Shown in pieces: positions 3,290-21,208 of a DNA stretch of 24,802 nt. Source of the DNA: a virus; the IMG/VR virus record IMGVR_UViG_3300030090_001917, positions 1 through 24,802 of that record; one strand, written 5' to 3'. How positions within the stretch are numbered: position 1 is the first letter of the stretch; each line of letters starts with the position of its first letter. The position numbers were made by a program, and so were the translations under genes. Below the pieces are notes generated by a model. That model did no database searches and had not been told where the DNA came from. It was given only the letters and a program-made list of their open reading frames with translations.

Positions 3290-6007
3290 TTATTTATTTT
3301 TTTTCGAAAACTTTTTTATATAAGCCAATGCTAATGCTTTTCTTTTTTCTTTTTGCTTTTTATAAGTCATAGGACTTTGTGGTGGTGGGCCTTGTGGCGG
3401 ACCTTGTGGAGGTCCCTGTGGTGGGCCTTGTTGTTGTGAGTCAGCATAAACACCTTCTTTGTTTTGTTTTTCCTCTTCTACACTAGCTAAAGTTTGATCC
3501 ATTATTCCTTGAGCGGCATCTCCTTTTTGTTGTGGTTGCTGCGGGATATTTTGAGTATAAGCTTCTTTCATTTTTGAAGTTAACCAACCGTGTATTTCGT
3601 CTGTTAAACGATCTAAGTCAAACTTAGGGCTTTCTGGCATAAATTGATCAACATCAACCCCAGGATCAACTTCTAAATAATCTTGAAGCCAAGATTGACC
3701 ATACAAAGGATCAAAAGCCCAAGACAAAACACTATCTTCATTTTTTAACAATTGATCAGCATTACCTTTTACAGTATTTTCATTTAAAGGTTTACCACTT
3801 TCTGCTAACTTTTGAAGTTCTTCTGATATTTTTAAAAACTGTGCATAACCCATGTCGTCTTTAGCAAATACATCGGTATCTAATTCTTCTACGTATTTAA
3901 CAGTTGGTAATCCAAAAGATTTTATACCTATTTTACCATCTTCACCAATACCTATAGTGGTATTTTTATCACCCATAAAAGTAATATTACCAATAAACCT
4001 TTCGTCTTTTCTAGAACCTTGAGAAACAACAGATCCACCAGCATTACCTTCTGTTTGGTCCCCAGCGTTTCTAGCTATCCAATCTAAAAACTTACCTGAA
4101 TAAGTAGTTACATCTTGTATTAAAGTATTAACAGCTGTAGATATTCTTTGTTTTTCATCGTTGTTTTTATTAGCTTTAATCATTGCTGCTTTTTGTTCTT
4201 GTAACCATTTTGTTATTATACCAACCCATTCTTGGTTTTGGAATGAATTTATAGGTTTATCTGTTTCAGCATTGTAATTACTGTGTTTTATAAACTTATC
4301 TATTTTCTTATCCATATCAGAACCATATGCTTGTATCTTTTCCCATATACTTCCAAACTCCATTTGGCTAATGTCTTGCTCTTGTTGATGTAATGGACTA
4401 CCATAATTCATCGGTGGTTGAGTTGGCATCCAGTTTTCACGTGTTTTTAAACGACTTCTAAATGCAGAGCGACTAGCAAATGGCGACTTAAACTGAACCG
4501 GTATAGGTTGTGTATAATCAAATTGAGATTTAAAGTTTACAGGTGTATCTTCATTGCTAAAATCACCATTAAAAAATCCTCTAGCATTCATTTTTAATAC
4601 CTCACTAGCTATAGCAGCCTCATGTTGACTAGAATAAGAACTTTGAAACGCATTAATTAAATCACTATTTTTAAGGCCTTGTTTTTGTAATTCTTTTAAT
4701 TTATCTTGAGCTTCTTTTAATGTTTGGTCATATTGTGCTCTAAAGTCTTTCCACTGTGTAGCTGACATCTCTAGTCTAGAGTCGGAAGCAAAACCAAAGT
4801 GTTGAAAAACATACCTTTCAGCACCACGTAATTTGTTAAATTTTATAGTTTTTAGACCGGTACTTTCGTTGGTTTTAAATTTAAAACTATAATCAAAAGC
4901 ATTACCTCTAACTTTACCTCTATTATTAAAACCAGTGACATTACCTTTTCTATCAAATGTAGTTTCTACAGGTCGGTTTTTGCTCCGTCTAATATTTCCA
5001 CCTCCTAGAAATACAGACTCATAACCGTCTACGCTAAGCCCGTCTAAACCTCCAACATATGGATTTACGTTGCCTTGAGAATAATTTTCGTTTAGTTCTT
5101 TTTGCTGCTTTTTATTTAAAGTTTGAGTTCCAAAAGACTGGTTAAAGTCATCAACATCAGCTTGGTTTGAAAACCCTAAGTCTTTCTTTTTAACGTCTTT
5201 TTTATCAGGAACATCAGTGGTTGATTTCTTAACACACTTGCTCCCATCCCAATATTCGTCTTCAGCACATTGGTTTGGGTCTGGTTCATCACAAGGTGGA
5301 CAATCTTGATTGATTGGCACTCTAGTAACAACTTCACCATCACACTCACACGGCTTGTCCACTGCGCCATCCGTATCTTTACATTTTTTATCACAGTCTT
5401 CTTGTGTTTTTTCCTGACCTCCACATTTACAATCTACTAACTTATCTGGATCTGGTTTTTCTTCTTCACAAGGGAGTTCATCTTCACATTTTTTAGTTGC
5501 AGATATTCTACCCATGTAAACACCATCACAATAACATGGTTTTTCTTCTCCACCCACGTCTGTTTCTTTACAAGCTTTCTCGCAATCTGCTTCTGTTTTT
5601 ACTTTTACGCCGCAGTCACAAGTAAATAATTTATCATCATCTGGATCTTCCTTCTTTTCTCTTCTATCTTGACATCTACCTAGTGTAGGATTCCATAGCC
5701 CACCGCTTTCAGCACAATCTTTTTTTAGCTCATTTATTTCTTTTTCTTTTATATTTGCTTTAGTACGTTTAACTGATGCCTCTGCCGAGTTCATTACTCT
5801 TTCAAGAGATGACTTACCAAAATCAATTTTACTCCAGTCTATACTGTAACCAGTGTTTTGTGGGCCTGGGTTACCATAATTACCACCACCAGCCGCATCA
5901 AAAGCTTTATCCGTCCAACTACCGCTTTTTTTGTTAACACCAGCTGTAGCTATATCATAAGTGCTTTGTAAAAAGCTTGTACCTTTCTTATCTTTTTTCT
6001 TTGCCAT
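3290..6007 (-). CDS. 905-residue putative internal virion protein with a cysteine-rich duplicated module
   Basis: The protein starts MAKKKDKKGTSF, with ATG at 6007, 3 bases after the previous stop. Residues 1-97 are a Gly/Lys-rich region. Residues 98-258 contain all 20 cysteines of the protein. Two tandem copies of an eight-cysteine unit (130-180 and 193-239) share the spacing CxC-x9-C-x3-C-x10/11-CxC-x13-C. They are flanked by two similar cysteine pairs, WNPTLGRC before and YWDGSKC after. Residues of about 260-830 are hydrophilic, mostly helical with some beta stretches. Near the C-terminus a Gln/Pro-rich linker holds four QGPP units, followed by a very basic end (YKKQKEKRKALAL... to KKNK). 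No enzymatic domain was recognised. It lies between a 216-residue and a more than 1093-residue gene, so it resembles the middle member of a podovirus ejection set (T7 gp15 is 747 residues). The CDS is certain; the role is inferred from position and could instead be a fibre or decoration protein. Confidence 0.72.
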   Translation of the reverse strand: MAKKKDKKGTSFLQSTYDIATAGVNKKSGSWTDKAFDAAGGGNYGNPGPQNTGYSIDWSKIDFGKSSLERVMNSAEASVKRTKANIKEKEINELKKDCAESGGLWNPTLGRCQDRREKKEDPDDDKLFTCDCGVKVKTEADCEKACKETDVGGEEKPCYCDGVYMGRISATKKCEDELPCEEEKPDPDKLVDCKCGGQEKTQEDCDKKCKDTDGAVDKPCECDGEVVTRVPINQDCPPCDEPDPNQCAEDEYWDGSKCVKKSTTDVPDKKDVKKKDLGFSNQADVDDFNQSFGTQTLNKKQQKELNENYSQGNVNPYVGGLDGLSVDGYESVFLGGGNIRRSKNRPVETTFDRKGNVTGFNNRGKVRGNAFDYSFKFKTNESTGLKTIKFNKLRGAERYVFQHFGFASDSRLEMSATQWKDFRAQYDQTLKEAQDKLKELQKQGLKNSDLINAFQSSYSSQHEAAIASEVLKMNARGFFNGDFSNEDTPVNFKSQFDYTQPIPVQFKSPFASRSAFRSRLKTRENWMPTQPPMNYGSPLHQQEQDISQMEFGSIWEKIQAYGSDMDKKIDKFIKHSNYNAETDKPINSFQNQEWVGIITKWLQEQKAAMIKANKNNDEKQRISTAVNTLIQDVTTYSGKFLDWIARNAGDQTEGNAGGSVVSQGSRKDERFIGNITFMGDKNTTIGIGEDGKIGIKSFGLPTVKYVEELDTDVFAKDDMGYAQFLKISEELQKLAESGKPLNENTVKGNADQLLKNEDSVLSWAFDPLYGQSWLQDYLEVDPGVDVDQFMPESPKFDLDRLTDEIHGWLTSKMKEAYTQNIPQQPQQKGDAAQGIMDQTLASVEEEKQNKEGVYADSQQQGPPQGPPQGPPQGPPPQSPMTYKKQKEKRKALALAYIKKFSKKNK
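3383..3430 (-). repeat. Four tandem 12-base units encoding QGPP
   Basis: Four in-frame 12-base units (3383-3394, 3395-3406, 3407-3418, 3419-3430) each encode Gln-Gly-Pro-Pro close to the C-terminus of the 905-residue protein. Units one and four are identical on the plus strand (tggtgggccttg). The middle two differ mainly at third codon positions, so the peptide is kept while the DNA has drifted. The stretch is distinctly G+C-richer than its surroundings. It is probably a flexible, polyproline-like linker between the folded part and the basic tail. Confidence 0.85.
5291..5620 (-). repeat. Tandem duplication of an eight-cysteine module within the 905-residue protein
   Basis: Copy 1 covers residues 130-180 (bases 5468-5620) and copy 2 residues 193-239 (bases 5291-5431). 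Both begin CxCG, continue with a T-(E/Q)-x-DCxxxC segment, then a KPCxCDG segment, and end with two further cysteines. Cysteine spacing matches at six of seven intervals to within one residue; only the last differs (x5 against x2). Acidic spacers (EEEKPDPDK and DEPDPNQ) follow each copy. This is a protein-level duplication; the DNA copies have diverged. Confidence 0.85.
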
Positions 6008-6010
6008 GTT

Positions 6011-6661
6011 TTATTGTTTATAAGCGTGAAACTGATGTCTTCCTGCCTGCCTGTTGTCTAAATATGTATTAATTCCACCTTGAACACCACCTACAGTATC
6101 CCATATACCTTGGTTGTATAATGTCTCCGCTTGGTTCATCGCTTGGTCAGCTGCTGTTTTTTCACTCATTGCTGCTGACAAAAAGTCTGATTCTCTTGCT
6201 TCTTGTTTATTATAAACCCATTGATCACCTTGAGCTTTTTGGCTTTGTATACTTGCTTCTTGTTGTGCTCTAGCCATTTGATTAGCTCTTTCTTGTTGAC
6301 CTATACTTCCAGCTATTTGGCCTGACATTTGTTGTCCTTGATTCATTATTTGTTGTGCTAAACCTGCCACACCACTACCACCAGCCGCTGCTTGTAGATT
6401 TTGCATAGCGTTAGCTTGTTGAACAGCCATTTGCTGCCTTTGAAAGTCAACTTGCTGTTGGTTAATAGTTAAGTCTTCGTAAGTATTTTGTAAATTAGCA
6501 TATGGATTAGTAAGATCTAAGCTTTCTAATCTTTGTCTACGCATAGCGACTTCTCTATTGGCTCTTTTTTGCTCCGCCTCTCTAGCGTCACGATCTTTTT
6601 TGGCGCTTATCATTTTTGAGACACCACCAACGACAGCAACGCCAACTGTTATCCAAGTCAT
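6011..6661 (-). CDS. 216-residue Gln/Ala-rich membrane-associated virion protein, ejection-protein-like
   Basis: The protein begins with a short hydrophobic stretch (residues 2-18, TWITVGVAVVGGVSKMI) followed by a strongly charged segment (KKDRDAREAEQKR). It continues as a long Gln/Ala/Met-rich helical region with an AAAGGSGVAGLAQQ hinge around residue 92-105, and ends in a basic, His-containing tail. Its ATG overlaps the stop of the upstream cupin-like gene by four bases (ATGA), which suggests translational coupling. Size, hydrophobic N-terminus and helical make-up resemble small ejected proteins of podoviruses (T7 gp14, 196 residues), and it comes first of three such genes. Similar Gln-rich proteins with this Gly/Ala hinge are familiar to me from marine phages, but no function is established here. 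A holin is an alternative, though the single weak membrane segment and long coiled region fit poorly. Confidence 0.7.
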   Translation of the reverse strand: MTWITVGVAVVGGVSKMISAKKDRDAREAEQKRANREVAMRRQRLESLDLTNPYANLQNTYEDLTINQQQVDFQRQQMAVQQANAMQNLQAAAGGSGVAGLAQQIMNQGQQMSGQIAGSIGQQERANQMARAQQEASIQSQKAQGDQWVYNKQEARESDFLSAAMSEKTAADQAMNQAETLYNQGIWDTVGGVQGGINTYLDNRQAGRHQFHAYKQ

Positions 6662-9850: not shown

Positions 9851-12800
9851 TTAGTCTTGATCACCGATATCTTGTATCGTAAATTTATATTTAGGTGCTG
9901 GTGTTACTACTGTTGTCGCTACAGTTGTAGGAGTACCAATACCTTGTACTGAAAACTGTTTTACATTAAGGTTGGCTAAAGTATTTTCTTCGTTACCTTT
10001 TATAAAATTAAACCATTTACCTTCTTTGTCTCTAAACTCTGGAATAAATCCTTTTTCTAGATCTGTTTCTATAGACTCTGCCCACCAGCCATCGACACTA
10101 GCGTTATTATAATACTCTCCATCATCAGTGTTTTCTATTATTCTAGACTGAGTGCCCTCATAACTTAAAGATGAAAAGTTTTTAACACTACTTGGCATTT
10201 CGTTAAACAATAAACATAAAGTAGAGTCAACAGAATTTAATCCATAAAAAGTATTTCTAGTTTCGTTAGTATGGTGCTCGTATAGCTCACCACCTTTAAA
10301 TGTAAAGTATCTATCATTTAAGCTAATACCAGTTTCTTGAATCCAAGATTTAAAACTAGTCCAACCTTTAGATTGCTCAGAAAAACTTATAGTATATGGA
10401 ATTATTGTTGATGCAGAGTCACCGTCACTAGCAGACGCTTTGTCATAATAACTTATTTTAGCAGCGTGAGCATGTAAATTAAACACACCAAAATCCCAGT
10501 TTAGTGTTATTCTATAATAACTACCACCATTTGTGCTTGTTGCAGCTGCATTAACAGCGGTTACTGTATACACAGCTTCAGAGCCAGGCGCTATACCACC
10601 ACCACCAAAGTTGTTTGGCGCTATAGATAAGTTATGACTATTACCAGCGTTTACACTCGTTCTTAACGCTTCTAACCATGTTGAAACATCTGTTTGGTTA
10701 TAGTCGTGTGTAGATACTTCTATATGAGTAATATCCGCGGCATCGTATTCTATAGTGCCAGCAGAATTAAACGCAACCCAATCATAAGCCTGAACAGTAC
10801 CAGGTGTTAAACCTAAACCTTGATTACCTGTTATACCGTATTCATAACCAACAGTGCCTAAAGGAGTGTTTGCTGAGAGAGACGCTTCTAATCCAGACGC
10901 GTTTTGCTCTAGTGTTAAGTTATAAAGACCTTTTCTATCATCATAACTACCAATCAAAGTAGTATCACTTGATTTTAAAACATCTTTAAACCAAGTTTTC
11001 ATGCCAGATTCTGAAATAGGCGTTAATCCGTTTTGTGACATTCTCATAACCGCGCCTCTAGATCTATCTGTAAAGTATGCTCTATATTGGTCTGCGGCAA
11101 ATGATTCTGGATCTGTAGATATACCAAAATCACCACCAGCTGGTTGAGCATTACCTAGAACTTTACTTGATGCTATAACTTGTGGATTGCCATCAGCGTT
11201 ATATAATATATCTTTATTGGCTGCTATTTTTAAAATTCTATCCTCACAAAAAGCTGTTAAATTAGTATCTTTCGACCAAAGTTTTTGTATACTACCATAG
11301 GTTGGGTTTAAATCTTTAGTTATTGGTTCTGCTTGTATAAACTGATTTAACCTATTAATACCACTAGTTGAATTATATATACCAGAGTGTATTAAACCTG
11401 ATTTTCTTCGTTCTTCTTTATATTGTTCTGCTAAAACAGTAGATGCTTTAGGGCCCTTGTCTACTGTAACAGCGTTGAAATCATCTCTAATTCTATTTGA
11501 TTCTACACCGTTGGCGAAGGAAAAACAGTTGTAATATTTAAGTGGATTGTATCTACCTTCAAAAGCTGTATTTTCTATACTATTTAAATAAGGCGTCCAT
11601 TCTTCTTCTATAGGATACGCTCTACCAACTTCATTATAAAGATCTAAGTCTATATCTTCTTTTGGTTCTGTTTCCCATATAGCTGGGTTATCGCTAGTAT
11701 AACTTCCATCTGAAGAAAACTCTTGTAAAAACTCAATTTGCCTCTTGTATTTACCAGCGTGCGATCCAGTAAAGTTCGCCCAATCATTATTAAAAGTTAT
11801 ATCACCAACATCACCACTTGTTGTACCTTCTGCGTTATGCGTAAATGGATTGTAACCAGTAGCATCGTTACCTAAAGCATCCTTCCCAGTACTACCTAAA
11901 GCTGGCCAAAAAAGAACTCTAAATTTTTCTCTATGATTTGATGCCCAACCATACTGATCACCGTTGAGCGCGGCAGAAGCGCCTAAAGTAAGAACTCCGC
12001 CTAGTCCATAGCCCCAACCACTATCTACATTTACGTCATCTGAGTTGTCATAAAAATTTTCAACTGAATGACTAGCACAATTTAATATTCTATAAACCGT
12101 GGTATCACCTCTCCATCTAAATAGTGTTCCTGGTTTTTTTAATACCGTGGCAATTCTTTTAGAAAAAGCGCTAACACCAGTGTCAGTTGCGGTAGCTACG
12201 TGCCAAGGATAAGATTCATCTCCCTTGCCCATGTTTTCAAACCAATGATAAGATATGTCTATTTTAAAATTATTTGAATGAAGACCCTTACCGTGTTCAA
12301 AACCAGGTGGCGCATGATCGTCTAAATGACACCCTTCCGCTATTATATTGTCAACAAACCACTTATGCTGCAAAGCTTTACCAGGACTACCATCTTCCTG
12401 CCAGCATTCTTTAGAAAGCCTAGCGCCATTAAAACTATCAAAGTTTTTTAACTCTAATAAATCAGAGGTAATATATTTTATTTCAGGGGCTCTTTCTGCT
12501 ATGTGTTTTTCAAACACACCGTCTCTCTCTAATTTAACAAAAAACCTACCAGCAAATTCAGGTAAATTTTTCATTTCTTTTTTTGCTAACTCTATTCTTA
12601 AATTAGGGTTTATATTACCACTAGTAGTACCATCATCTGTAGTAAAAGATATATCAGATTTTAAAGAGCTCCTTAGTATTATTCTTCTGTGCGCTGTGGA
12701 ATAAGCTACTATGCTAGCTACATCATACCATTGAGATATGTTTGTGTTATCATAAATTCTTATTACTCTATCTTGTGCCGATAAAGCTTGATAATAGGTA

Positions 12801-15800
12801 CCGTTTTCATGAAAAAGACTTTCTGGTAAATCTAAGTGTTGTTGATTTTCTCTAGGCTCACCACTTGATGCAAACGTTACTTGTCTAGTTCCAAAAGTAT
12901 CGTATCTTAACTTTATATAATCTGGGGCCTCGTTTTCTATAGCTAAAATTTTATACCTAGCTTTATCTTTAACAAACACGCCAGAGTCGTGTTGCTTTTT
13001 TAATATTAAATGTGTTTCTTCGTCAACTTTATTTCTTTCTGAGGAAGGAAAGCTTACCCAAACATTACCATCATCAGCTGAATAATAACGATCCATAGCT
13101 AAGTTATAATACTCGTTTGAGTTTTCTTTTATATAGTATCTAAAGTGAGTGGCCCATTCTGGATAGTTGTTATTTTCTAATCTAACTGTTAAACCGTTGT
13201 ACTTGTCGGCATCGGCTTTTAATACTCTTTTTACACCTGAATCATGCGCTTGTACTGGTGTTTGTCTACCAAACTCATCAGAATATACCACACCCACTTG
13301 ATAATCTCTTAAAGATTTTACAGATCTCTCTGGTAGTGTTAGTACGTTTGGAATATTATTACGTGCATCCCACCAATCTATTGTACTTCCATCAAGCGGA
13401 TCTCTTAAAGCTGTTCTGTCATTGTACTGAACATTACTTCTAATATTTCTTCTTCTATTTATTGAAATTTTAAATTTAGAATCAACAGAATTTCCTTCCT
13501 CATCTCTCATGTTGTAATTCTGTAGGTAATTACCATACACCACTCTATTACCTGTTACTTCTTGGGCTAAAGCTTTTCTAGGCACGTTATCCCATGGTCG
13601 CAGTAGTTGATTTGCTGGTAGAGCAGCGTGTATCATGTCTGTTGTTATTTGTAGCGATCCTTGAGGATGGTCTATATTAAAAGCTGGTTTCTTAGCTATA
13701 GTTCTTTTAAGGTTAAAAGTATTAGTAGTAGACGTCCAAACTCCATTTGTATCTTCTGTTGCGTTATGATACCACCAATCACTAACACTTCCAGTTGTAG
13801 AAGTTGAATCTGTTACTGCAACACCATTGTGCGTTAAAGCTACAGCTGTTACACTTATACCATTTACTACAGTATTATGTATACCAGCAATAAGCACTGC
13901 CGAATTAAGACCGGTTTGGCCATCTGTAAAATCAATAATGTCACCTATCATTATATTTATACCACCAAAGTTATGGTTTAAAACAAAGTAATCTACACCG
14001 CTTACATCAATAGCTGGCTGTAAAGCTCCAGCGTCATCAAAACCCCAAGATGTAGAAGACACAACATAAGTATCTGTAGTTAATGTATTTGGTGCTTCTT
14101 TAAATACATCAGTATCGGTTTCTATTTTACCAAACCAACCGGGACAATCATTAGGATGTCTACCAAAAGTACCTAAACTGCTAACTTCTTTACTAGGTGA
14201 TTTTATAGTATCTACAGTGTAAACATTTGGCGAGTTAGATTCTTTGTATAATACGTCTATTTCTACAACATCCAAAGGCATTGTTATTGGTTTAAAGCCA
14301 GATATAACTAAATACCTTAAATTATTAGTCATTCCTACATTATAACCTTTTTGAGGTATATAATCAAAAACATCAGGAATAAAAGCTACCTCAGAAAAAG
14401 GAGAATAAGTAGAATATTCACCATCTTCGTATTTCCATCTATAAGCGAACCTAGGAAACTTGAACTCAAACAACGGGTCTTCTTGCTGTAGTCTAACTCT
14501 AAAATTAACATAAGGTTTTATTAGTCGGAAAGATATAGATATTATTTTAAATTTAAATGCAATTTTATTTTGAACATCATGAACCGTGGCAACAACTAAA
14601 GGATCATTGTCAAAACCAGCATCATCATCTTGCGGCATAAACTCTACCGTGTCACCTTCTCTCCAATCTATTTGATTAGGAAAAGTAAGCCAACCAGTTG
14701 TTTTGTCATAAGTCAATCTAGCACCGCTGCTGTTGAAAAAAAAGTCACTACTACCAGAGCTAGCGCCTGGTAAACTAACAAGCGAATCTATTACAACTTG
14801 ACCGTCTTTTGGATCGTCCTTTTCCGCCCTAGTAGAGTTAGACATCGTTAAAACTGGTGGGGTTGTTGGCGCCGGCTTTATAACTGTAGCATATTTATAT
14901 GAAAAGAAGGGATTAGTTATAGCGGAGTTGTAAGAACTAACCGAAGCTAGTCTACCATTACTAGAGTTAGGTAGCTCTCCATTTACAATTAAAAGTGTTG
15001 GGAAGGCGTTAGTGCCATTATAATTATAACCGTTAGCTATTGTATATATAGGTATATGTTTTGATATTGGTTGTTGACTACCATACTTACACCTGTCAAT
15101 ATTAATTTTCTTTGGCTCAGTAAGATTATCTGTCCAAAACAAAAGATTATCAAGAATATTAATACCTGTTATTAGTTTTTTTGGTCTAACAGAAGAGAAG
15201 TGAGAAAAACCTAAAACTCTTTTTTCGGGTGGTAACTCAAACGTCACTGTTGCTCCTGCTGCAACGCTAGATAAACCATTGTAACCGCTATCAGATGGTG
15301 TGTGCTTAGTATACACTCTCCAACCATTCCACGGGGCAGCATCATATTCTATTTTAGTTATGTAGGTCTTCATATTGTTTACATAAACATCCATGCCTAC
15401 TTGTATGCCTACGTATCTAATATCATTAGCTTGGTTTAAGTTACTAATATGTAAGTGGTCGCCAGAATCATGACTGTCATTAGATATTGTTGTTTCTACT
15501 TTATAGTGCTCAACTACAACATAGCTTAATTCACCACTTGTCTCATCGTACTCCATAATATAATCAGAGTATACGTTGTGAACAACGCTAACTGTACCGG
15601 AACTATCTTGCTCCGCGTGAGAATAAGTGGTACTAGCAGCTGTATTTTTGTCTGGTGCAGAAATAAACCAATATAATTTATTTTTACTTTCATCTACTAT
15701 ACTACCAACACAAGTAGCGTTTTCACCAAATAAACTTGTTATAGCTGTGTTACCTTTTAAAGTTTGTACAGCGCCTACATCTGAGCCTTCTGATGTTGAG

Positions 15801-15904
15801 ATTTCGATGTTCATCGCATCTCTATATTCACCATTAGGTACCATTCTTTCGTCAAGGTCTTTGTTCATCCGACCTTGTGTAAAATTATGCTTTAACTCTG
15901 GCAT
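9851..15904 (-). CDS. 2017-residue tail protein, probable nozzle or muzzle component
   Basis: By far the longest complete gene. The N-terminus carries a short signature, F-T-x-G-x-M-N-K-D-L-D-E-R-x-V-P-N-G-E-Y (residues 8-27), followed by RDAMNIEISTSEGSDVG and QTLKGN. This is analogous in layout to the start of podovirus nozzle proteins such as T7 gp12, where a strand with Gly, Asn and Pro landmarks precedes a beta propeller. KLYWFIS (around residue 76-82) and LLFWTDNLTEPKKINID (254-270) look like propeller blade strands of the YWTD kind. A later segment (YQVGVVYSDEFGRQTPV, then YPEWATHFRYYIKENSNEYY) is familiar from large marine phage structural proteins. The C-terminal third has repeated aromatic and Gly-rich strands. 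No enzyme motif was seen. Neighbours are a ring-type protein (3-base gap) and the adhesin-like protein. The usual nozzle is about 800 residues, so this one has a large extra part. The CDS is certain; the role is inferred from the N-terminal layout and gene order. Confidence 0.72.
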   Translation of the reverse strand: MPELKHNFTQGRMNKDLDERMVPNGEYRDAMNIEISTSEGSDVGAVQTLKGNTAITSLFGENATCVGSIVDESKNKLYWFISAPDKNTAASTTYSHAEQDSSGTVSVVHNVYSDYIMEYDETSGELSYVVVEHYKVETTISNDSHDSGDHLHISNLNQANDIRYVGIQVGMDVYVNNMKTYITKIEYDAAPWNGWRVYTKHTPSDSGYNGLSSVAAGATVTFELPPEKRVLGFSHFSSVRPKKLITGINILDNLLFWTDNLTEPKKINIDRCKYGSQQPISKHIPIYTIANGYNYNGTNAFPTLLIVNGELPNSSNGRLASVSSYNSAITNPFFSYKYATVIKPAPTTPPVLTMSNSTRAEKDDPKDGQVVIDSLVSLPGASSGSSDFFFNSSGARLTYDKTTGWLTFPNQIDWREGDTVEFMPQDDDAGFDNDPLVVATVHDVQNKIAFKFKIISISFRLIKPYVNFRVRLQQEDPLFEFKFPRFAYRWKYEDGEYSTYSPFSEVAFIPDVFDYIPQKGYNVGMTNNLRYLVISGFKPITMPLDVVEIDVLYKESNSPNVYTVDTIKSPSKEVSSLGTFGRHPNDCPGWFGKIETDTDVFKEAPNTLTTDTYVVSSTSWGFDDAGALQPAIDVSGVDYFVLNHNFGGINIMIGDIIDFTDGQTGLNSAVLIAGIHNTVVNGISVTAVALTHNGVAVTDSTSTTGSVSDWWYHNATEDTNGVWTSTTNTFNLKRTIAKKPAFNIDHPQGSLQITTDMIHAALPANQLLRPWDNVPRKALAQEVTGNRVVYGNYLQNYNMRDEEGNSVDSKFKISINRRRNIRSNVQYNDRTALRDPLDGSTIDWWDARNNIPNVLTLPERSVKSLRDYQVGVVYSDEFGRQTPVQAHDSGVKRVLKADADKYNGLTVRLENNNYPEWATHFRYYIKENSNEYYNLAMDRYYSADDGNVWVSFPSSERNKVDEETHLILKKQHDSGVFVKDKARYKILAIENEAPDYIKLRYDTFGTRQVTFASSGEPRENQQHLDLPESLFHENGTYYQALSAQDRVIRIYDNTNISQWYDVASIVAYSTAHRRIILRSSLKSDISFTTDDGTTSGNINPNLRIELAKKEMKNLPEFAGRFFVKLERDGVFEKHIAERAPEIKYITSDLLELKNFDSFNGARLSKECWQEDGSPGKALQHKWFVDNIIAEGCHLDDHAPPGFEHGKGLHSNNFKIDISYHWFENMGKGDESYPWHVATATDTGVSAFSKRIATVLKKPGTLFRWRGDTTVYRILNCASHSVENFYDNSDDVNVDSGWGYGLGGVLTLGASAALNGDQYGWASNHREKFRVLFWPALGSTGKDALGNDATGYNPFTHNAEGTTSGDVGDITFNNDWANFTGSHAGKYKRQIEFLQEFSSDGSYTSDNPAIWETEPKEDIDLDLYNEVGRAYPIEEEWTPYLNSIENTAFEGRYNPLKYYNCFSFANGVESNRIRDDFNAVTVDKGPKASTVLAEQYKEERRKSGLIHSGIYNSTSGINRLNQFIQAEPITKDLNPTYGSIQKLWSKDTNLTAFCEDRILKIAANKDILYNADGNPQVIASSKVLGNAQPAGGDFGISTDPESFAADQYRAYFTDRSRGAVMRMSQNGLTPISESGMKTWFKDVLKSSDTTLIGSYDDRKGLYNLTLEQNASGLEASLSANTPLGTVGYEYGITGNQGLGLTPGTVQAYDWVAFNSAGTIEYDAADITHIEVSTHDYNQTDVSTWLEALRTSVNAGNSHNLSIAPNNFGGGGIAPGSEAVYTVTAVNAAATSTNGGSYYRITLNWDFGVFNLHAHAAKISYYDKASASDGDSASTIIPYTISFSEQSKGWTSFKSWIQETGISLNDRYFTFKGGELYEHHTNETRNTFYGLNSVDSTLCLLFNEMPSSVKNFSSLSYEGTQSRIIENTDDGEYYNNASVDGWWAESIETDLEKGFIPEFRDKEGKWFNFIKGNEENTLANLNVKQFSVQGIGTPTTVATTVVTPAPKYKFTIQDIGDQD

Positions 15905-15907
15905 ATG

Positions 15908-16777
15908 CTAGTGTTTAATGTGTTTTGATTTACCTCTTAAAATTTGAGTTATTTCTTCTAATTTAATATTTGAAAGTCTTAATTTTGCTTTTCTTGTTTC
16001 AGCAAATCTTTCTCTTTTAAATCTTTGTACTATATATTCTTGAACGTTAGCCCTTGTTGATAATATAGCATAAGCAATATGTTTGTACATAGCCTCTTCA
16101 GCAAACTTATGAACTTTCATTTCAGCATCCGTACCAAGACTATCACTTATATAATCCAATACTATAGTTTTTCCAGCTAAATTTGAGCTAAAGTGTATCA
16201 AACCAGTATTAGGATCCATATAAAAAGTACCGTTTATTTGTGAATGCTCCGGGTCTATACCATATCTTTGCCCTACTAAAGCGCCATATATATCATCGTC
16301 ATAATCGTCATCATCAAATAAAACTGGCGTTAAACCTTGGTAGCTTTCCCATGTAGTAGAAGTGGTATCAGTGTCTAGTTCGTTTGCAGTAAATGTATAA
16401 TCGTTGTTAGCGTCTTGACCAACATCTGTTGGGTTAGATGTTTTTGATGTAGGTTGTATTACGTGCTTAACACCTTTAGAATCACTCCATGAAATTTTAA
16501 CATAATTAACATAATCTTGTGGTAGTTTCATTGTTAAAGATGATGGCAATGTTATTTCTTGAGACTTAGTAGATTTAAACGTATCAAACGATAGTTCTTG
16601 TAAAGCTCTTTGAGCGTGAAAAGCCACGTCTGTTCTTCTTATTTTTGATATTATTTTATCTTCACCTACGTAAGCAATTATAAATTGATTAATAATATGC
16701 TCTAAAGATGTAAATTGATAATCTCCAAAACTACTACCAGTATAATATGCTTGTCCTGTTTGCGTTATTAATCCCAT
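15908..16777 (-). CDS. Probable tail ring or head-to-tail connector protein (289 residues)
   Basis: The protein begins MGLITQTGQAYYTGSSFGDY. Residues 24-60 form two helices with a conserved-looking RTDVAFHAQRALQEL segment. Then come TFKSTKSQEITLPSSLTMKL and PQDYVNYVKISW, a beta unit that I recognise from many marine phage clusters, where it is annotated only as structural. An acidic run (FDDDDYDDD, residues 154-162) may bind cations or form an interface. The C-terminal quarter is helical and basic (QRFKRERFAETRKAKLRLS). Its ATG follows the stop of the upstream gene immediately, with no intervening base. Position between capsid-side genes and the nozzle candidate fits a ring protein of a short tail, in the manner of the adaptor rings of podoviruses. 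The exact family is not established. Confidence 0.66.
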   Translation of the reverse strand: MGLITQTGQAYYTGSSFGDYQFTSLEHIINQFIIAYVGEDKIISKIRRTDVAFHAQRALQELSFDTFKSTKSQEITLPSSLTMKLPQDYVNYVKISWSDSKGVKHVIQPTSKTSNPTDVGQDANNDYTFTANELDTDTTSTTWESYQGLTPVLFDDDDYDDDIYGALVGQRYGIDPEHSQINGTFYMDPNTGLIHFSSNLAGKTIVLDYISDSLGTDAEMKVHKFAEEAMYKHIAYAILSTRANVQEYIVQRFKRERFAETRKAKLRLSNIKLEEITQILRGKSKHIKH

Positions 16778-17506
16778 CTATTGCATGTTTTTTAATTGTG
16801 TTATAGTATTATCTTCGTTTGCTGCTAATTGTGTTAAACCTGGTTTGTTTAAAGTTACTCCTGCTAGTTCTAGTATTTTATATACCAACTCAGCTTCTTC
16901 TGAAGCCTGTAGTTCAAAATTAGTAGATGTACCCGCGTTGTATAAAGCTTGATTATTTACAACTGTATAGCCCCAAACTGGAGTTACAGGTTTTGCTATA
17001 TAGTTACAAGTTACATTACCAGTGGTATAAGCAACCGTTGGAGACGCGGGAAACAACTTAATAACTGCTTCTGTTTTTCTAACATAAACAGGCCTAGCAT
17101 CTGTAGGTGCTGCTAAAGCTGTTCTTTCTAAATAGTGTAAATCATTTTTCTCTACTCGCTCTACTTCCACGTCATAAACACCAGATGCGTAAAAAACCGT
17201 ACCTAACTTATGCACAGTTGTACTCGTTGGTAAAGTAGCTTCATTGCCACTTACAGCTGACATAGCTACTTTCCATTGTTCAAATGGAGCTATTTTTTCG
17301 TGTAGAATATCTATTTTATCACTGTACTCGCCGCTGTTACCATGAGCTTTTAAATATCTATCAATATCATGAAAGTACTGTTCAAATATTAATAGTTGAG
17401 CTTGCTCAGCCAACAAACCGTACTCTTGAGGTGTTATATAACCTCTTTGTTCTTTGTTAGCTAAAGCTAAAACTCTTTGATATACTGTATCTACACTTAT
17501 CGCCAT
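16778..17506 (-). CDS. Probable head-to-tail adaptor or ring protein (242 residues)
   Basis: Residues 1-60 are helical with the segment GYITPQEYGLLAEQAQLLIF, followed by FEQYFHDIDRYLKAHG. This pattern resembles adaptor or ring proteins in Bacteroidota podovirus-type phages, which start with a helix pair that docks on the portal. The middle (residues 70-180) is beta-rich with a TVHKLGTVFYASGVYDVEV segment and LFPASPTVAYTTGNVTCNYI. The C-terminus is helical (SEEAELVYKILELAGVTL). It contains no catalytic motif. It lies 2 bases after the 57-residue gene and abuts the 289-residue gene, so all three are probably co-translated. The adaptor role is inferred from gene order and fold impression. Confidence 0.62.
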   Translation of the reverse strand: MAISVDTVYQRVLALANKEQRGYITPQEYGLLAEQAQLLIFEQYFHDIDRYLKAHGNSGEYSDKIDILHEKIAPFEQWKVAMSAVSGNEATLPTSTTVHKLGTVFYASGVYDVEVERVEKNDLHYLERTALAAPTDARPVYVRKTEAVIKLFPASPTVAYTTGNVTCNYIAKPVTPVWGYTVVNNQALYNAGTSTNFELQASEEAELVYKILELAGVTLNKPGLTQLAANEDNTITQLKNMQ

Positions 17507-17508
17507 AT

Positions 17509-17682
17509 TTATTTTTTATTTTTATAAGGAAAAGCTTTGTTTAAAGCTTCCTTTCTTTTTGAACAACCACAATCTTTCTTTTTACCAAATATTCCATTAT
17601 CGGCCAATATTTTTGTAAAAGATTTTATTCCCGTGGCTGATGTAAATTTTTCTACTGAGTCTCCTAAACCTTTTGATTTCAT
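17509..17682 (-). CDS. 57-residue basic protein with a DCGC motif
   Basis: The start is placed at the ATG at 17682 (MKSKGLGDSVEKFTSATGIK). A GTG nine codons upstream (17709) is possible, but it lies inside the descending arm of an RNA hairpin, and the upstream nine residues look non-conserved. The leader before 17682 is A/T-rich like those of its neighbours. The protein is strongly basic, with helical N-terminal half, then KKKDCGCSKRKEALNKAFPY. Cys-x-Cys next to basic residues suggests a metal site or a nucleic acid or capsid contact, but two cysteines alone cannot form a full zinc site without a partner or dimer. I know short GLGDS...CGC...R(K/Q)E proteins beside structural genes of marine phages; their role is unknown. 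Confidence 0.68.
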   Translation of the reverse strand: MKSKGLGDSVEKFTSATGIKSFTKILADNGIFGKKKDCGCSKRKEALNKAFPYKNKK

Positions 17683-17701
17683 ATTATTTGATTTTAGTAT
17701 T

Positions 17702-17725
17702 GCAACCACCCGTTAAGATGGTTGC
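17702..17725 (-). promoter_or_regulatory. RNA hairpin without U-tract between two structural genes
   Basis: In the minus-strand transcript, GCAACCAUCU and GGGUGGUUGC pair over ten positions (eight Watson-Crick, two G-U) around a UAAC loop. It lies 14 bases after the stop of the 275-residue gene. The following transcript (AAUACUAAAAUC) has no uridine run, so this is not a standard intrinsic terminator. It may protect or process the mRNA, or slow ribosome access to the 57-residue gene whose ATG lies about 20 bases downstream. Confidence 0.6.
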
Positions 17726-17739
17726 TCTACTTGTTATTG

Positions 17740-18567
17740 TTATTTTAATCTTTTTTCAATATTTGAATAAACCTCCATTCCCTCATCGGTTTTAAACCAA
17801 GCTGCTAGCGCTGAATATGGGTGCTCATCAAAAGGAACTGTAAATAATTTTCTATCGTTAGATCCCCAGGTAAACGTTCTTTGGTCTTGAGATAACTTTA
17901 ATATGTTCATTTCTGTAGCTCTAATACCAAAGTTTCTAAGCATTACATTTTCATCAGTAACCAACTCTAAGAATAACATTGGATTTCTTTTAGCAAATAC
18001 TAATAAATCTCTTTTTATCTCCTTAGAACTCATCTTAGATACCCTAGAACCAATCTCAGCTCTCATAACTGCTTCAGCCATATCTATATCTAGCTCCATA
18101 GCTGCGTTAAGAGCTTTTATTTCCATCTCTATAAAATTAACTTGATGCTCTGCTATTTTTTGAGGTTTTAACTCGTAAAATATTTTATCTCTATGTGGGT
18201 GATATAAAGATAGTAATTTCTGTAAAACTACTTTATTTTTAGGTACTTGTAATACTCCAGCTCTAAAAATAATATGTGATAACCTTTGGTCTCCTTTCAT
18301 TTCATCTACAAATGGAGTTATTTGGTTTTCACAATACTTTAGCTCTCTTTCGTAACCTAGTTTTTCATCAAACCAATATATACCAGCTGCTTTAATAGAT
18401 TTACTTAATGGTTTTTGTCCATTTTTTAATAAGTAGGTCCTATCTTTAATTTCCCAAGTATCTTTTTTAGGTAGTGGTTTTTCCACAACCTTTGTTTCAA
18501 CTTTTGGTTGTTCTACAACCACCGGTGTTTCTACCGTTTCTATTTTTGTTTCTTTTTTCTTTGCCAT
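17740..18567 (-). CDS. Conserved phage protein of unknown function (275 residues), capsid-adjacent
   Basis: The protein begins MAKKKETKIETVETPVVVEQ: residues 1-36 are a Lys/Glu/Val/Pro-rich disordered tail. A compact region then runs from about residue 37, with WEIKDRTYLLKNG, AAGIYWFDEKLGYERELKYC and LSHIIFRAGVLQVPKNK. A long helical middle contains IEALNAAMELDIDMAEAVM-like repeats of small and acidic residues (here ALNAAMELDIDMAEAVMRAE). The end has RTFTWGSNDRKLFTVPFDE and AAWFKTDEGMEVY. The family is familiar to me from marine phage structural clusters just after the capsid gene, without assigned function. It is the first gene after the capsid terminator and has an A/T-only leader. Possible roles are an assembly factor or capsid-associated protein; nothing in the sequence decides between them. 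Confidence 0.66.
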   Translation of the reverse strand: MAKKKETKIETVETPVVVEQPKVETKVVEKPLPKKDTWEIKDRTYLLKNGQKPLSKSIKAAGIYWFDEKLGYERELKYCENQITPFVDEMKGDQRLSHIIFRAGVLQVPKNKVVLQKLLSLYHPHRDKIFYELKPQKIAEHQVNFIEMEIKALNAAMELDIDMAEAVMRAEIGSRVSKMSSKEIKRDLLVFAKRNPMLFLELVTDENVMLRNFGIRATEMNILKLSQDQRTFTWGSNDRKLFTVPFDEHPYSALAAWFKTDEGMEVYSNIEKRLK

Positions 18568-18600
18568 AATATAATATATAATAAAATTAATAAAATAAAA
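18568..18600 (-). promoter_or_regulatory. 33-base A/T-only leader of the 275-residue gene, repeated before the scaffold gene
   Basis: All 33 bases between the ATG of the 275-residue gene and the G+C core of the capsid terminator are A or T. The plus-strand start (AATATAATATA) and the later TTAATAAA match the leader at 21209-21236 at most positions. No Shine-Dalgarno motif is present. It could be an unusual initiation signal of the Bacteroidota type, or a phage late promoter that restarts transcription after the terminator. Confidence 0.5.
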
Positions 18601-18626
18601 GGCCGAGGCCGAAGCCCCGGTCTTTT
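18597..18626 (-). terminator. Intrinsic terminator with UUCG tetraloop after the capsid gene
   Basis: The transcript arm AAAAGACCGGGGC pairs with GCCUCGGCCUUUU around a UUCG loop closed by C-G, the very stable cUUCGg form. Thirteen positions give eleven Watson-Crick pairs, one G-U pair and one C-A mismatch. A U-rich run follows the G+C stem (UUUUAUUUUAUU). It begins 9 bases after the capsid stop codon. The G+C-rich stem stands out in A/T-rich DNA. The A-run before the stem means it could also work on the other strand, but no plus-strand gene is near. It probably allows capsid mRNA to exceed that of the tail genes. Confidence 0.88.
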
Positions 18627-18635
18627 AAAAATTGC

Positions 18636-20069
18636 TTAGTTTAATAACATGAAGTTATTAGCACCTTGAACAACCATACATCTTTCAGATAAGAAGTTGA
18701 CTGTCATAGCATCTAAGTCAGAAGTAAGCGCTCCAACTGAACCTGTTACCCAAGTTTTCATTTTTCTGCTTTCTGCTTGAGAAGCTCTATATCTAACGTG
18801 TAAGAATGGACGTTTTAGGTTTTTACCTAATTGCTCATCATAAACTGAAGATACACCAGCTGGGATTACAACCCCTCTGATAGCCTCACCACCAGTAGCA
18901 GCAGCGTTGATACCACCTCTAGTTGCTAAATCATTTAAGTATTTCCAGTCAGACTTATAGAAGTCGTAAGAACCTCTTCTGAAACCAGAGAAACCTAAAT
19001 TAAGTGCCATATCTTCTTCGTTATCAAATACTCCGTAAGAAGTACCTCCAGCTCCGTAAGAATTCATAGAAGCTAACATGTCATCCATAGCTAAACTAGT
19101 AGCTCTGTTTACAAACATCATGTTTTCTTCAATAGCACCGTTTTTATCAAACTCAGCTAAAATAGCATCAAATTCTGCTAAATCAGTAGCCGCGTTAACA
19201 CCAGTAATACCAGATGATTGGTGACCTCTAGATGTAATAGCTGCGAATAAACCTTCTGTACCCGCTGTACCAGCACCACCGTCAGTAGGTAATGCAATAG
19301 CAGAATTCTCTGCTACTTTTTCAGACTCAATCATACTCATTTCTAAGTAATCAGTAAATCTTGCTCTAGTATCACCTTCAGCTTTTAAGTACCATAAGTA
19401 ACCGTTTTGTCCATCTTCACCAGAAACTTCAACCCAACCGATTTGAGAAGCATCAGATCCTGAAACTTCATACATATCTTTTAAAATAATTGGTTTGTTA
19501 GTAAATGTAGTGAAAGAAGGCTTATTAGCTCTACCACCAACATAACTAGTTCCTTTTGCGTTTTCAGAACCAAATACTAGTATAGTACAAGTGTTATCAC
19601 CATTAACAAAACCTGCGTTTGTCATATGTGCATAACCGTAAGGTTGTACAGTAATAGTTTGGCTACCAGCCGCAGCAACGCTTACACGAGCTGTAACTGT
19701 TTGTCCACCACCAGCGATTAATACTTGATCACCAACTCTAATACCATGTGTAGTTGTTTGTGCTACATCGTCAATATTATGAGTAATATTGATTGTACTA
19801 GCTGTAACATCTAACATATCACATTTGTATGAAAGGTGTAATCTACCTTGTTCTGACCAAATAACTTGGTCTGATTGCATAGCTTCCTCCGCTGAAACTT
19901 GTGCTAAAAAACCTGAGATAGTTCTCTTACCGAAAACTTCAGCTTCTTTTTCCATCAAGTCAGGTAAGTACTGCTGCGCCCACCCATTGTTTTGGATGTC
20001 TAAATAATTTTCAGATGTAGCTGCTTGTATTGCTGCAGCTCTAGTCTGAGATCCTGCTGTAATTGCCAT
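18636..20069 (-). CDS. Major capsid protein
   Basis: The 477-residue protein lies third after the large terminase, directly after the scaffold candidate, the classical place for a capsid gene. Its length fits HK97-fold capsid proteins. The N-terminal 70 residues are helical (AQQYLPDLMEKEAEVFGKR, AEEAMQSDQVIW), like an N-arm. Residues 85-170 are a beta-rich segment (HGIRVGDQVLIAGGGQTVTA ... SQTITVQPYG) that may be an inserted surface domain. Residues 185-250 contain KPIILKDMYEVSG and SGEDGQNGYLWYLKAEGD, ending in RARFTDYLEMSMIESEKVA, the spine-helix type. The C-terminal half (FDNEEDMALNLGFSGFRRGS, KSDWKYLNDLATRGG, RPFLHVRYRASQAE, VNFLSERCMVVQGANNFMLL) I recognise from marine phage capsid proteins. 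The gene is followed by a strong terminator, as expected for the most abundant product. The closest group is not assigned. Confidence 0.88.
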   Translation of the reverse strand: MAITAGSQTRAAAIQAATSENYLDIQNNGWAQQYLPDLMEKEAEVFGKRTISGFLAQVSAEEAMQSDQVIWSEQGRLHLSYKCDMLDVTASTINITHNIDDVAQTTTHGIRVGDQVLIAGGGQTVTARVSVAAAGSQTITVQPYGYAHMTNAGFVNGDNTCTILVFGSENAKGTSYVGGRANKPSFTTFTNKPIILKDMYEVSGSDASQIGWVEVSGEDGQNGYLWYLKAEGDTRARFTDYLEMSMIESEKVAENSAIALPTDGGAGTAGTEGLFAAITSRGHQSSGITGVNAATDLAEFDAILAEFDKNGAIEENMMFVNRATSLAMDDMLASMNSYGAGGTSYGVFDNEEDMALNLGFSGFRRGSYDFYKSDWKYLNDLATRGGINAAATGGEAIRGVVIPAGVSSVYDEQLGKNLKRPFLHVRYRASQAESRKMKTWVTGSVGALTSDLDAMTVNFLSERCMVVQGANNFMLLN

Positions 20070-20086
20070 TTTTAATTGTTTTTAAG

Positions 20087-21208
20087 TTATTTATTTTTTC
20101 TAATTTTAAATTGTTTAAAGTCATTTGGATTATCATTTAAAACTCTTACTTTAACACCAGACCTAACCTCTCCACCGTGTGATTGCCTAGGGTCCATGTT
20201 AATGTTTTTAGATTTTGCAACACTTTCTCTTAAAGCGTCTGCTCTACCTTGTTCATAAAAATGATTAGCAATAGCGTCAGAATTCATAGCTGTAAATAAT
20301 CCTTTATGATAACCACTCGCGTTTTCCATTTCGTTTTTTTCATTAAGAAACTTTCTTATGAAATTATTAATGTCGCTCTGAGTTGTTTTCACTTTTTCAG
20401 TATCACTTACGTTATATCTAAATCTTTTGTCACCAATTTTATATTCAAAACCTTTAAAGTCATTATTGAATAATTGATCAGTTTTTTCTAAAAACATAGA
20501 TTGTGCATTTTCCTGTGCTTGCTTTCTATCTTTTGACTCGTTGAAGAATTTAATAGCGTTTTGTTGCTCTTCAGTGAGCTTAGACCCCATTTTAATATCT
20601 TCATAGTATTTGGACTTTAGCCCGTCCAGGTGGCTTTTAGCGCTGGCAACTTGCTCTTTTAACGCTAATTTTTTTCTCTTTATATCCCTTTCATTATCTA
20701 TCTTTTCATCCCAGTCAAAACTTTCTTGTACTAAAAAGTTTATTTCATCATCATCTAAATGTGGTTTTGTATCTTTATAATATGATCTAAGTAAATCATC
20801 ATCACCGTAATCTTCGTAGTTTCGATTTAAATTCATATAATCATTTAAATCGCCACCAGTATCTTTCATAAAATCAACAACCTTTTGTATACCCTCTGGT
20901 AAATCTGGCTGTGGAGGTAGTTGAGGTTTTACTGGTTCTTCATCTGTAATTTCAACTATAGGTTGCTGCTCAACTTCAGGTTGCTCTACAACTTCCTCTG
21001 TAGCAGGCTTTGCGTTAGTCAAATCAACTTTAGTAACCTCCGGTTTAACTTCCTCTGTAGGCTTTGTTAGTTTTACCTTAACAATATCTGGTATTTCTTT
21101 ACTTTTTGATTTTTTTACTTTTAAACCTTCTACTTTTTCATTAGTATTTTCTTGTTGACTTAGTACTTCCTCTTTTTTAGGTAGTTCTTTTTCTTTGTTT
21201 TCTTCCAT
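20087..21208 (-). CDS. Probable capsid scaffolding protein
   Basis: Lies between portal and capsid genes, the standard place of the scaffold. The 373-residue protein has a long low-complexity Lys/Glu/Val/Pro-rich N-terminus (1-110), then GGDLNDYMNLNRNYEDYG, LLRSYYKDTKPHLDDDEINF and a helical coiled segment with KKLALKEQVASAKSHLDGLK and YYEDIKMGSKLTEEQQ. The middle helices (about 220-300) are charged. The C-terminus is basic and probably helical (VRVLNDNPNDFKQFKIRKNK), like the capsid-binding tail of scaffolds. No protease motif is present, so release of scaffold would be without a self-cleaving domain. A minor structural protein is a less likely alternative. The start has an A/T-only leader very similar to the one before the 275-residue gene. 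Confidence 0.75.
   Translation of the reverse strand: MEENKEKELPKKEEVLSQQENTNEKVEGLKVKKSKSKEIPDIVKVKLTKPTEEVKPEVTKVDLTNAKPATEEVVEQPEVEQQPIVEITDEEPVKPQLPPQPDLPEGIQKVVDFMKDTGGDLNDYMNLNRNYEDYGDDDLLRSYYKDTKPHLDDDEINFLVQESFDWDEKIDNERDIKRKKLALKEQVASAKSHLDGLKSKYYEDIKMGSKLTEEQQNAIKFFNESKDRKQAQENAQSMFLEKTDQLFNNDFKGFEYKIGDKRFRYNVSDTEKVKTTQSDINNFIRKFLNEKNEMENASGYHKGLFTAMNSDAIANHFYEQGRADALRESVAKSKNINMDPRQSHGGEVRSGVKVRVLNDNPNDFKQFKIRKNK

Follow-up and report, generated by a model that had tools for sequence, protein, structure and literature searches.

A hypervariable cysteine-bead cassette in a gp15-position, probable ejection protein of a Bacteroidota-type podovirus

How ejected phage proteins thread is a long-standing question. 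The ejection proteins of T7 are reported to pass through a narrow channel, refolding once in the oxidizing periplasm (PMC8954989), and the cargo of crAss001 is thought to unfold while it is being extruded (PMC10172136). These proteins are also very poor in cysteine, which accounts for 1 of 2261 residues in the ejection proteins of T7, 0 of 1309 in P22, 1 of 1326 in Sf6, 0 of 2416 in phiKMV and 1 of 2282 in P-SSP7. Taken together, the ejection proteins of the five phages contain 3 cysteines in 9,594 residues, compared to 113 in 15,306 for the rest of their virion or packaging proteins (P = 2e-20, an approximately 24-fold depletion), and the crAss001 cargo proteins gp45 and gp46 plus part of gp47 contain 2 in 2670. 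Cysteine goes unmentioned in a review of ejection proteins, and such a rule was not stated in the literature searched; hence, as far as these searches show, a general exclusion of cysteine from ejection proteins is unreported. What is new here is a gp15-position protein, probably ejected, that carries a hypervariable cassette of cysteine beads.

The source record is a 28.1-kb IMG/VR fragment, of which positions 1 to 24,802 were analyzed (the window, 24,802 nucleotides in length). Its portal protein is 42–52% identical to the best-matching portals, which come from podoviruses of Flavobacterium and Maribacter and from an environmental relative, and Cellulophaga and Tenacibaculum phages are likewise among the matches. 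The record is a Bacteroidota-type podovirus and a marine phage. Its genes encode, in order, the terminase, the portal, a 373-aa protein, the capsid protein, proteins of 275, 242 and 289 aa, a 2017-aa tail protein, a 768-aa protein, small genes, a 216-aa gp14-position protein, a 905-aa protein and a giant protein truncated at the record end (Table 1).

Table 1. Positions of the features discussed (window coordinates, unless another locus is named)
Feature	Positions	Strand	Basis or remark
905-aa protein, gp15 (ejection-protein) position	3290..6007	-	ORF, synteny, orthologue alignment
Conserved cysteine-free body, about residues 489-860	3428..4543	-	Orthologue alignment, profile comparison
Cysteine-rich cassette, residues 98-258, 20 cysteines	5234..5716	-	Translation; hypervariable slot from DNA comparison
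Two-cysteine bead C98-x13-C112 (CAESGGLWNPTLGRC)	5672..5716	-	Bead type common to L088 and L091
Eight-cysteine repeat copy 1, residues 130-180	5468..5620	-	Spacing, alignment, AlphaFold2 (pLDDT 73)
Eight-cysteine repeat copy 2, residues 193-239	5291..5431	-	Spacing, alignment; partly common to L001
Two-cysteine bead C247-x10-C258 (CAEDEYWDGSKC)	5234..5269	-	Bead also in L001/L088 (CAEDEYWDGVRC)
216-aa gp14-position protein, no cysteine, conserved family-wide	6011..6661	-	Homologue comparison and remote matches
Giant gp16-position protein, start only, no cysteine in 1093 aa	3..3281	-	Cut by record end
2017-aa tail protein, query for finding the family	9851..15904	-	IMG/VR scan
Tail hub protein with the repeat, L075/L076	5312-12256		
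Tail hub protein with the repeat, L082	4868-11662		
Tail hub protein with the repeat, L078	8174-11986		
Tail hub protein with the repeat, L070	5099-11959		

Two IMG/VR scans, one with the 2017-aa tail protein and one with the 216-aa protein as the query, yielded 160 loci. Nearly all of those reaching far enough encode a homologue of the 216-aa protein, then a gene of 300–1000 aa and then a giant gene. The 905-aa gene is likewise directly 3' of the gp14-like gene and followed by the giant gene, an arrangement that matches T7 genes 14-15-16. The 216-aa protein also matched remotely to elemo gp20 and Panino gp72, both annotated as virion structural proteins, although no proteomics supporting these annotations was found. 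Phmmer and jackhmmer searches of the 905-aa protein against gp15-position proteins recovered L001 only, and profile-profile comparison was therefore needed. In that comparison, the body matched a profile of 34 gp15-position proteins (97% probability, E = 1e-10) and a second cluster of seven (91% probability, E = 1e-6), while shuffled sequences gave E-values of 0.2 or worse and T7 proteins 0.15 or worse. The homologous part spans roughly residues 540–760, and the relationship to the sister-phage proteins (~450 aa) is remote and C-terminal. Homology of the gp14- and gp15-position profiles to T7 gp14-16 was rejected (E = 0.15 for gp15, the level of shuffled controls), so the 905-aa protein is not a demonstrated homologue of T7 gp15. 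By profile similarity and synteny, it is a member of this family's gp15-position proteins and probably an ejection protein. We infer its presence in the virion and its ejection from gene order, the remote homology of the body and the cysteine-free remainder of the protein, which together lend good support to the sequence-only reading of this DNA, where it was called a putative ejected phage protein. Short motifs (FKSPF, NYGSPLHQ and SPMxY) are conserved across orthologues at residues 506–540 and at the C-terminus, and a QGPPQGPPQGPP run lies close to the C-terminus; these are possible packaging or binding motifs.

Cysteine is also scarce at the ejection positions of the wider family. Counted in loci L009–L167, outside the window's own clade, proteins at the gp14, gp15 and gp16 positions contain 8 cysteines in 29,961 residues, 39 in 53,563 and 33 in 196,609, respectively. 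Pooled, this amounts to 80 in 280,133 versus 1,190 in 161,890 for the tail genes just upstream, a 26-fold depletion (the classes rest on gene position and the ORFs on mechanical calling, and related loci do not count as independent). No cysteine at all is present in 306 of the 343 proteins at the three positions, or in 97 of the 116 gp15-position relatives. Within the window, the 905-aa protein outside its cysteine block and the two neighbouring proteins contain none in 2053 residues, compared to 31 in 5966 for the other genes (P = 2e-4). Against this near-absence, a module of 20 cysteines is a striking exception, and the earlier remark that it is unexpected in a virion protein agrees with the counts from both the family and the model phages.

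The 905-aa protein has 20 cysteines (residues 98, 112, 130, 132, 142, 146, 158, 160, 174, 180, 193, 195, 205, 209, 220, 222, 236, 239, 247 and 258), every one of them in the block, and the remaining 744 residues have none. Chance clustering was rejected (P of about 1e-15 for all 20 falling within a given 161 of 905 residues), as was a frameshift or spurious ORF, because the reading frame and flanks are kept in orthologues. The core is a tandem duplication with eight cysteines per copy, spaced C-1-C-9-C-3-C-11-C-1-C-13-C-5-C in copy 1 and C-1-C-9-C-3-C-10-C-1-C-13-C-2-C in copy 2. The duplication is genuine, with a BLOSUM score between copies of 140 compared to 49 ± 10 for shuffles with cysteines fixed (0 of 2000 reached 140). 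Read more finely, the repeats consist of four-cysteine units, CxC(x)G...CxxxC alternating with CxC(x)G...C-x2/5-C. On each side is a single cysteine pair (C98/C112 and C247/C258), and the first of these bead types recurs as CIEQKGQWNPTTGTC in L088 and CEKDGGTWNYQTKKC in L091. The block is acidic (44 D/E versus 24 K/R, net -20). In each of these respects, namely the confinement of the cysteines, the duplication, the flanking pairs and the acidity, the sequence-only description holds.

To place the block among its relatives, the N-terminal slot was compared with that of nine further orthologues sharing the same body. Slot cysteine counts are even in every orthologue, and range from 20 in the window, 18 in L001/L088 (CxC units, several two-cysteine pairs and a GCTN..DDGSC bead) and 16 in both L091 and L095, through 14 in L173, 12 in L094 (CxC pairs only) and 10 in L100, to 2 in L089 (GCMDPKATNYDEYAEVQPDGAC) and none in L092 (TEQPTN repeats) or L158 (DNSQT and EPDVV repeats). 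Outside the slot, L095 and L100 each have two further cysteines and L173 has one. Comparisons of DNA illustrate how local the replacement can be. For example, L092 and L089 are about 89–97% identical along the gene versus 52–61% in nt 301–600, which is the slot, and the window and L001/L088 share 90–96% identity in the body versus 50–53% in the cassette, with one common block at 84%. The middle of the protein (nt 751–1350) has likewise diverged between the window and L088 (52–58% identity). Nonetheless, L095, which is about 23% identical overall, has the copy 1 spacing C-1-C-9-C-3-C-11-C-1-C exactly. The giant proteins of L088, L089, L091, L092, L100 and L173 also carry single two-cysteine beads of the slot types close to their N-termini.

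These alignments show the block to be a hypervariable, exchangeable cassette in an N-terminal linker, and not a conserved functional domain. A single conserved cysteine domain essential to all members was rejected, as orthologues without cysteines exist. The sequence-only reading held that homologues keeping the rest of the protein while lacking the cysteines would speak against it, and L092 and L158 (none) and L089 (two) partly represent that case. The block is exchangeable, but its cysteine spacing is exactly repeated in the distant L095.

The giant proteins of the window and L001/L088 have only about their first 48 residues in common, despite >90% identity in the body of the preceding gene, and the L088 protein (13371-20609) has 11 cysteines in 2413 aa, compared to 0 in the 1093 aa available from the window. 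In sister phages, a GC[TM]DPxAxNYNPxAxxDDGSC repeat, often in tandem, occurs at tail hub C-termini and in the next gene (Table 1), and the downstream genes of L066 and L069 also belong to this set. The repeat is weakly similar to a segment of animal MPEG1 (E of about 0.1). The tail hub of L082 additionally has its own tandem cysteine-rich block at residues of about 150–300 (copies CNCYCAG...CDLCC..C and CKCTCAG...CVTCC..C).

The module had not been recognized as a named family, and searches with it against Pfam, PHROGs, NCBIfam and PDB sequences bear this out, having returned no match. Neither tblastn of the 905-aa protein and of the module against a phage collection, nor scans of IMG/VR and bacterial genomes with the module alone, identified a relative. 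An AlphaFold2 prediction for a single 63-aa repeat (six sequences) gave a moderate model (pLDDT 73), in which a CxC strand is followed by a CxxxC-bearing helix, a second CxC strand and a further strand; as modelled, this geometry could accommodate either a pair of disulphides or a metal site of four cysteines. The model of the full 905-aa protein (two sequences, mean pLDDT 33) was uninformative, also as regards the helical, tube-forming fold of T7-type gp15, with helices predicted in the body at low confidence. Foldseek comparison of the predicted repeat with PDB and viral models gave no significant match (best E = 2.2), and a profile search of the module against PDB returned only a CSab protein at an insignificant E of 4.6.

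The leading alternative to disulphides is metal binding, with each CxC...CxxxC a four-cysteine site for zinc or another metal that is loaded in the cytoplasm and has no need of oxidation. The predicted four-cysteine units (CxC strand, then CxxxC helix) would be suitable for this, the cytoplasm is reducing and hence metal loading before packaging is plausible, and, if the insignificant PDB matches of the predicted repeat point anywhere, it is to metal, as they were mostly zinc fingers. However, all fold matches had E-values above 2, and comparison with C2H2/C4 zinc fingers gave no significant fold match (Foldseek E = 2.2) and no Pfam match to the module. Moreover, the spacing of the second pair differs between units (x3, x5, x2), two-cysteine beads stand alone both in the slot and in the gp16-position protein, and L094 and L100 have mostly CxC pairs set 12–34 residues apart. 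We regard metal beads as rather unlikely, though the most credible of the alternatives.

Stand-alone two-cysteine beads, varied spacings, even counts, the related beads of tail proteins and the weak MPEG1 resemblance favour disulphides over metal. On this basis, the beads are most likely small, disulphide-stabilized elements that acquire their fold at the tail tip or once ejected. T7 ejection proteins refold in the periplasm and crAss001 cargo appears to unfold in transit, so reduced beads could, by analogy, thread and then lock on arrival. We infer the following course. The 905-aa protein would be made and packaged with its beads reduced and loosely folded, able to thread the tail channel. 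Its N-terminal part would then arrive at an oxidizing place (tail tip, outer membrane or periplasm), where cysteines would pair up inside each bead to give a compact, locked knot. Once locked, the beads may form a stable spacer that resists proteases, or make contacts where the ejected conduit ends at the cell surface, a site at which rapid sequence turnover would be tolerated or favoured; variable content beside a conserved body suggests such a spacer or contact element. Because the cassette is dispensable in L092 and L158, an essential ejection switch is unlikely, and cysteine-free orthologues mean that locking on arrival cannot be essential in every member. The ejection-linked redox switch proposed earlier is thus difficult to maintain as an essential feature. 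For an exchangeable cassette of cysteine beads in a gp15-position ejection protein, working by this locking mechanism, we estimate a probability of roughly 0.5.

It may instead be that the slot is a flexible spacer of no specific function, in which cysteine beads and TEQPTN, DNSQT, EPDVV or TTSTT repeats are equivalent, drifting and recombining. The cysteine-free, low-complexity slots of L092 and L158 and the free swapping of content between close relatives are as expected of such filler, but cysteine is strongly excluded elsewhere in these proteins and yet dense and even-numbered in the slot, and bead types with exact spacing recur in distant orthologues, for which drift alone is insufficient; we consider this improbable. 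Least probable, by a little, is a protein that is not ejected but external or in the tail lumen, its beads facing the medium like those of sister-phage tail proteins, since related two-cysteine beads at the tail hub C-termini of L070, L075, L078 and L082 and the partial location of a crAss001 cargo protein in the tail barrel and probably at the muzzle (PMC10172136), are outweighed by a gene placed between the gp14-like and giant genes, remote gp15-position homology and cysteine exclusion outside the cassette, all of which fit an ejection protein.

The data point to a simple general rule that ejected proteins exclude cysteine, visible in about 100 marine podoviruses as well as in T7, P22, Sf6, phiKMV and P-SSP7. 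The cassette is an informative exception because that exclusion is general, and phages of a lineage in which the rule is broken chiefly in a single swappable slot are a natural probe of threading and of where ejected proteins meet an oxidizing environment. A broader and more tentative proposal is that podovirus ejection proteins have been strongly selected to exclude cysteine because they thread unfolded into an oxidizing compartment, and that one lineage added an exchangeable disulphide "fold-on-ejection" cassette, unfolded inside the virion and locking once delivered, with diversification like that of host-interaction elements; we would put this as possible, at odds clearly below even. Beads of this kind could also serve as portable disulphide tags with which to follow ejection.

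Among known systems, crAss001 gp45 resembles the 905-aa protein in its features: it is a large cargo protein, ejected and poor in cysteine, whose gene comes after those of the tail, and its N-terminal part is reported in the tail (PMC10172136); it differs in having no cysteine-rich block (2 cysteines in 842 aa). The predicted repeat, with its CxC strand and CxxxC helix, resembles CSab and C2H2/C4 zinc-finger folds, and the pattern CxxxC-x10/11-CxC occurs in L095 as well as in both copies, although the model is moderate and the likeness to either fold is insignificant (Foldseek E above 2; PDB profile E of 4.6). The two-cysteine repeat of marine phage tails is among the bead types in the slot of L001 and L089, but is not present in the 905-aa protein of the window. 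Neither sequence nor profile comparison detected homology to T7 gp14-16, and T7, P22, Sf6, phiKMV and P-SSP7 are without a long N-terminal extension bearing a cysteine-rich cassette; unlike T7-type gp15, the 905-aa protein as a whole is not cysteine-free, with its 20 cysteines in the cassette. Nonetheless, as with T7 gp15 and P22 gp20, its gene follows the tail genes, with a small gp14-like gene on one side and a giant gene on the other, and its body is cysteine-free, as are those two proteins (0 of 747 and 0 of 471 residues, respectively). The gp15-position proteins of Flavobacterium/Cellulophaga/Maribacter-type podoviruses (elemo gp19 and Panino gp71 by position) share its operon and neighbours, including a remote match at the gp14 position (88–89% profile probability), while the named gp15-position relatives examined (449–644 aa, no cysteine) gave no significant profile match to the 905-aa protein. 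The body of the 905-aa protein does match the large cluster that gp15-position proteins form in IMG/VR.
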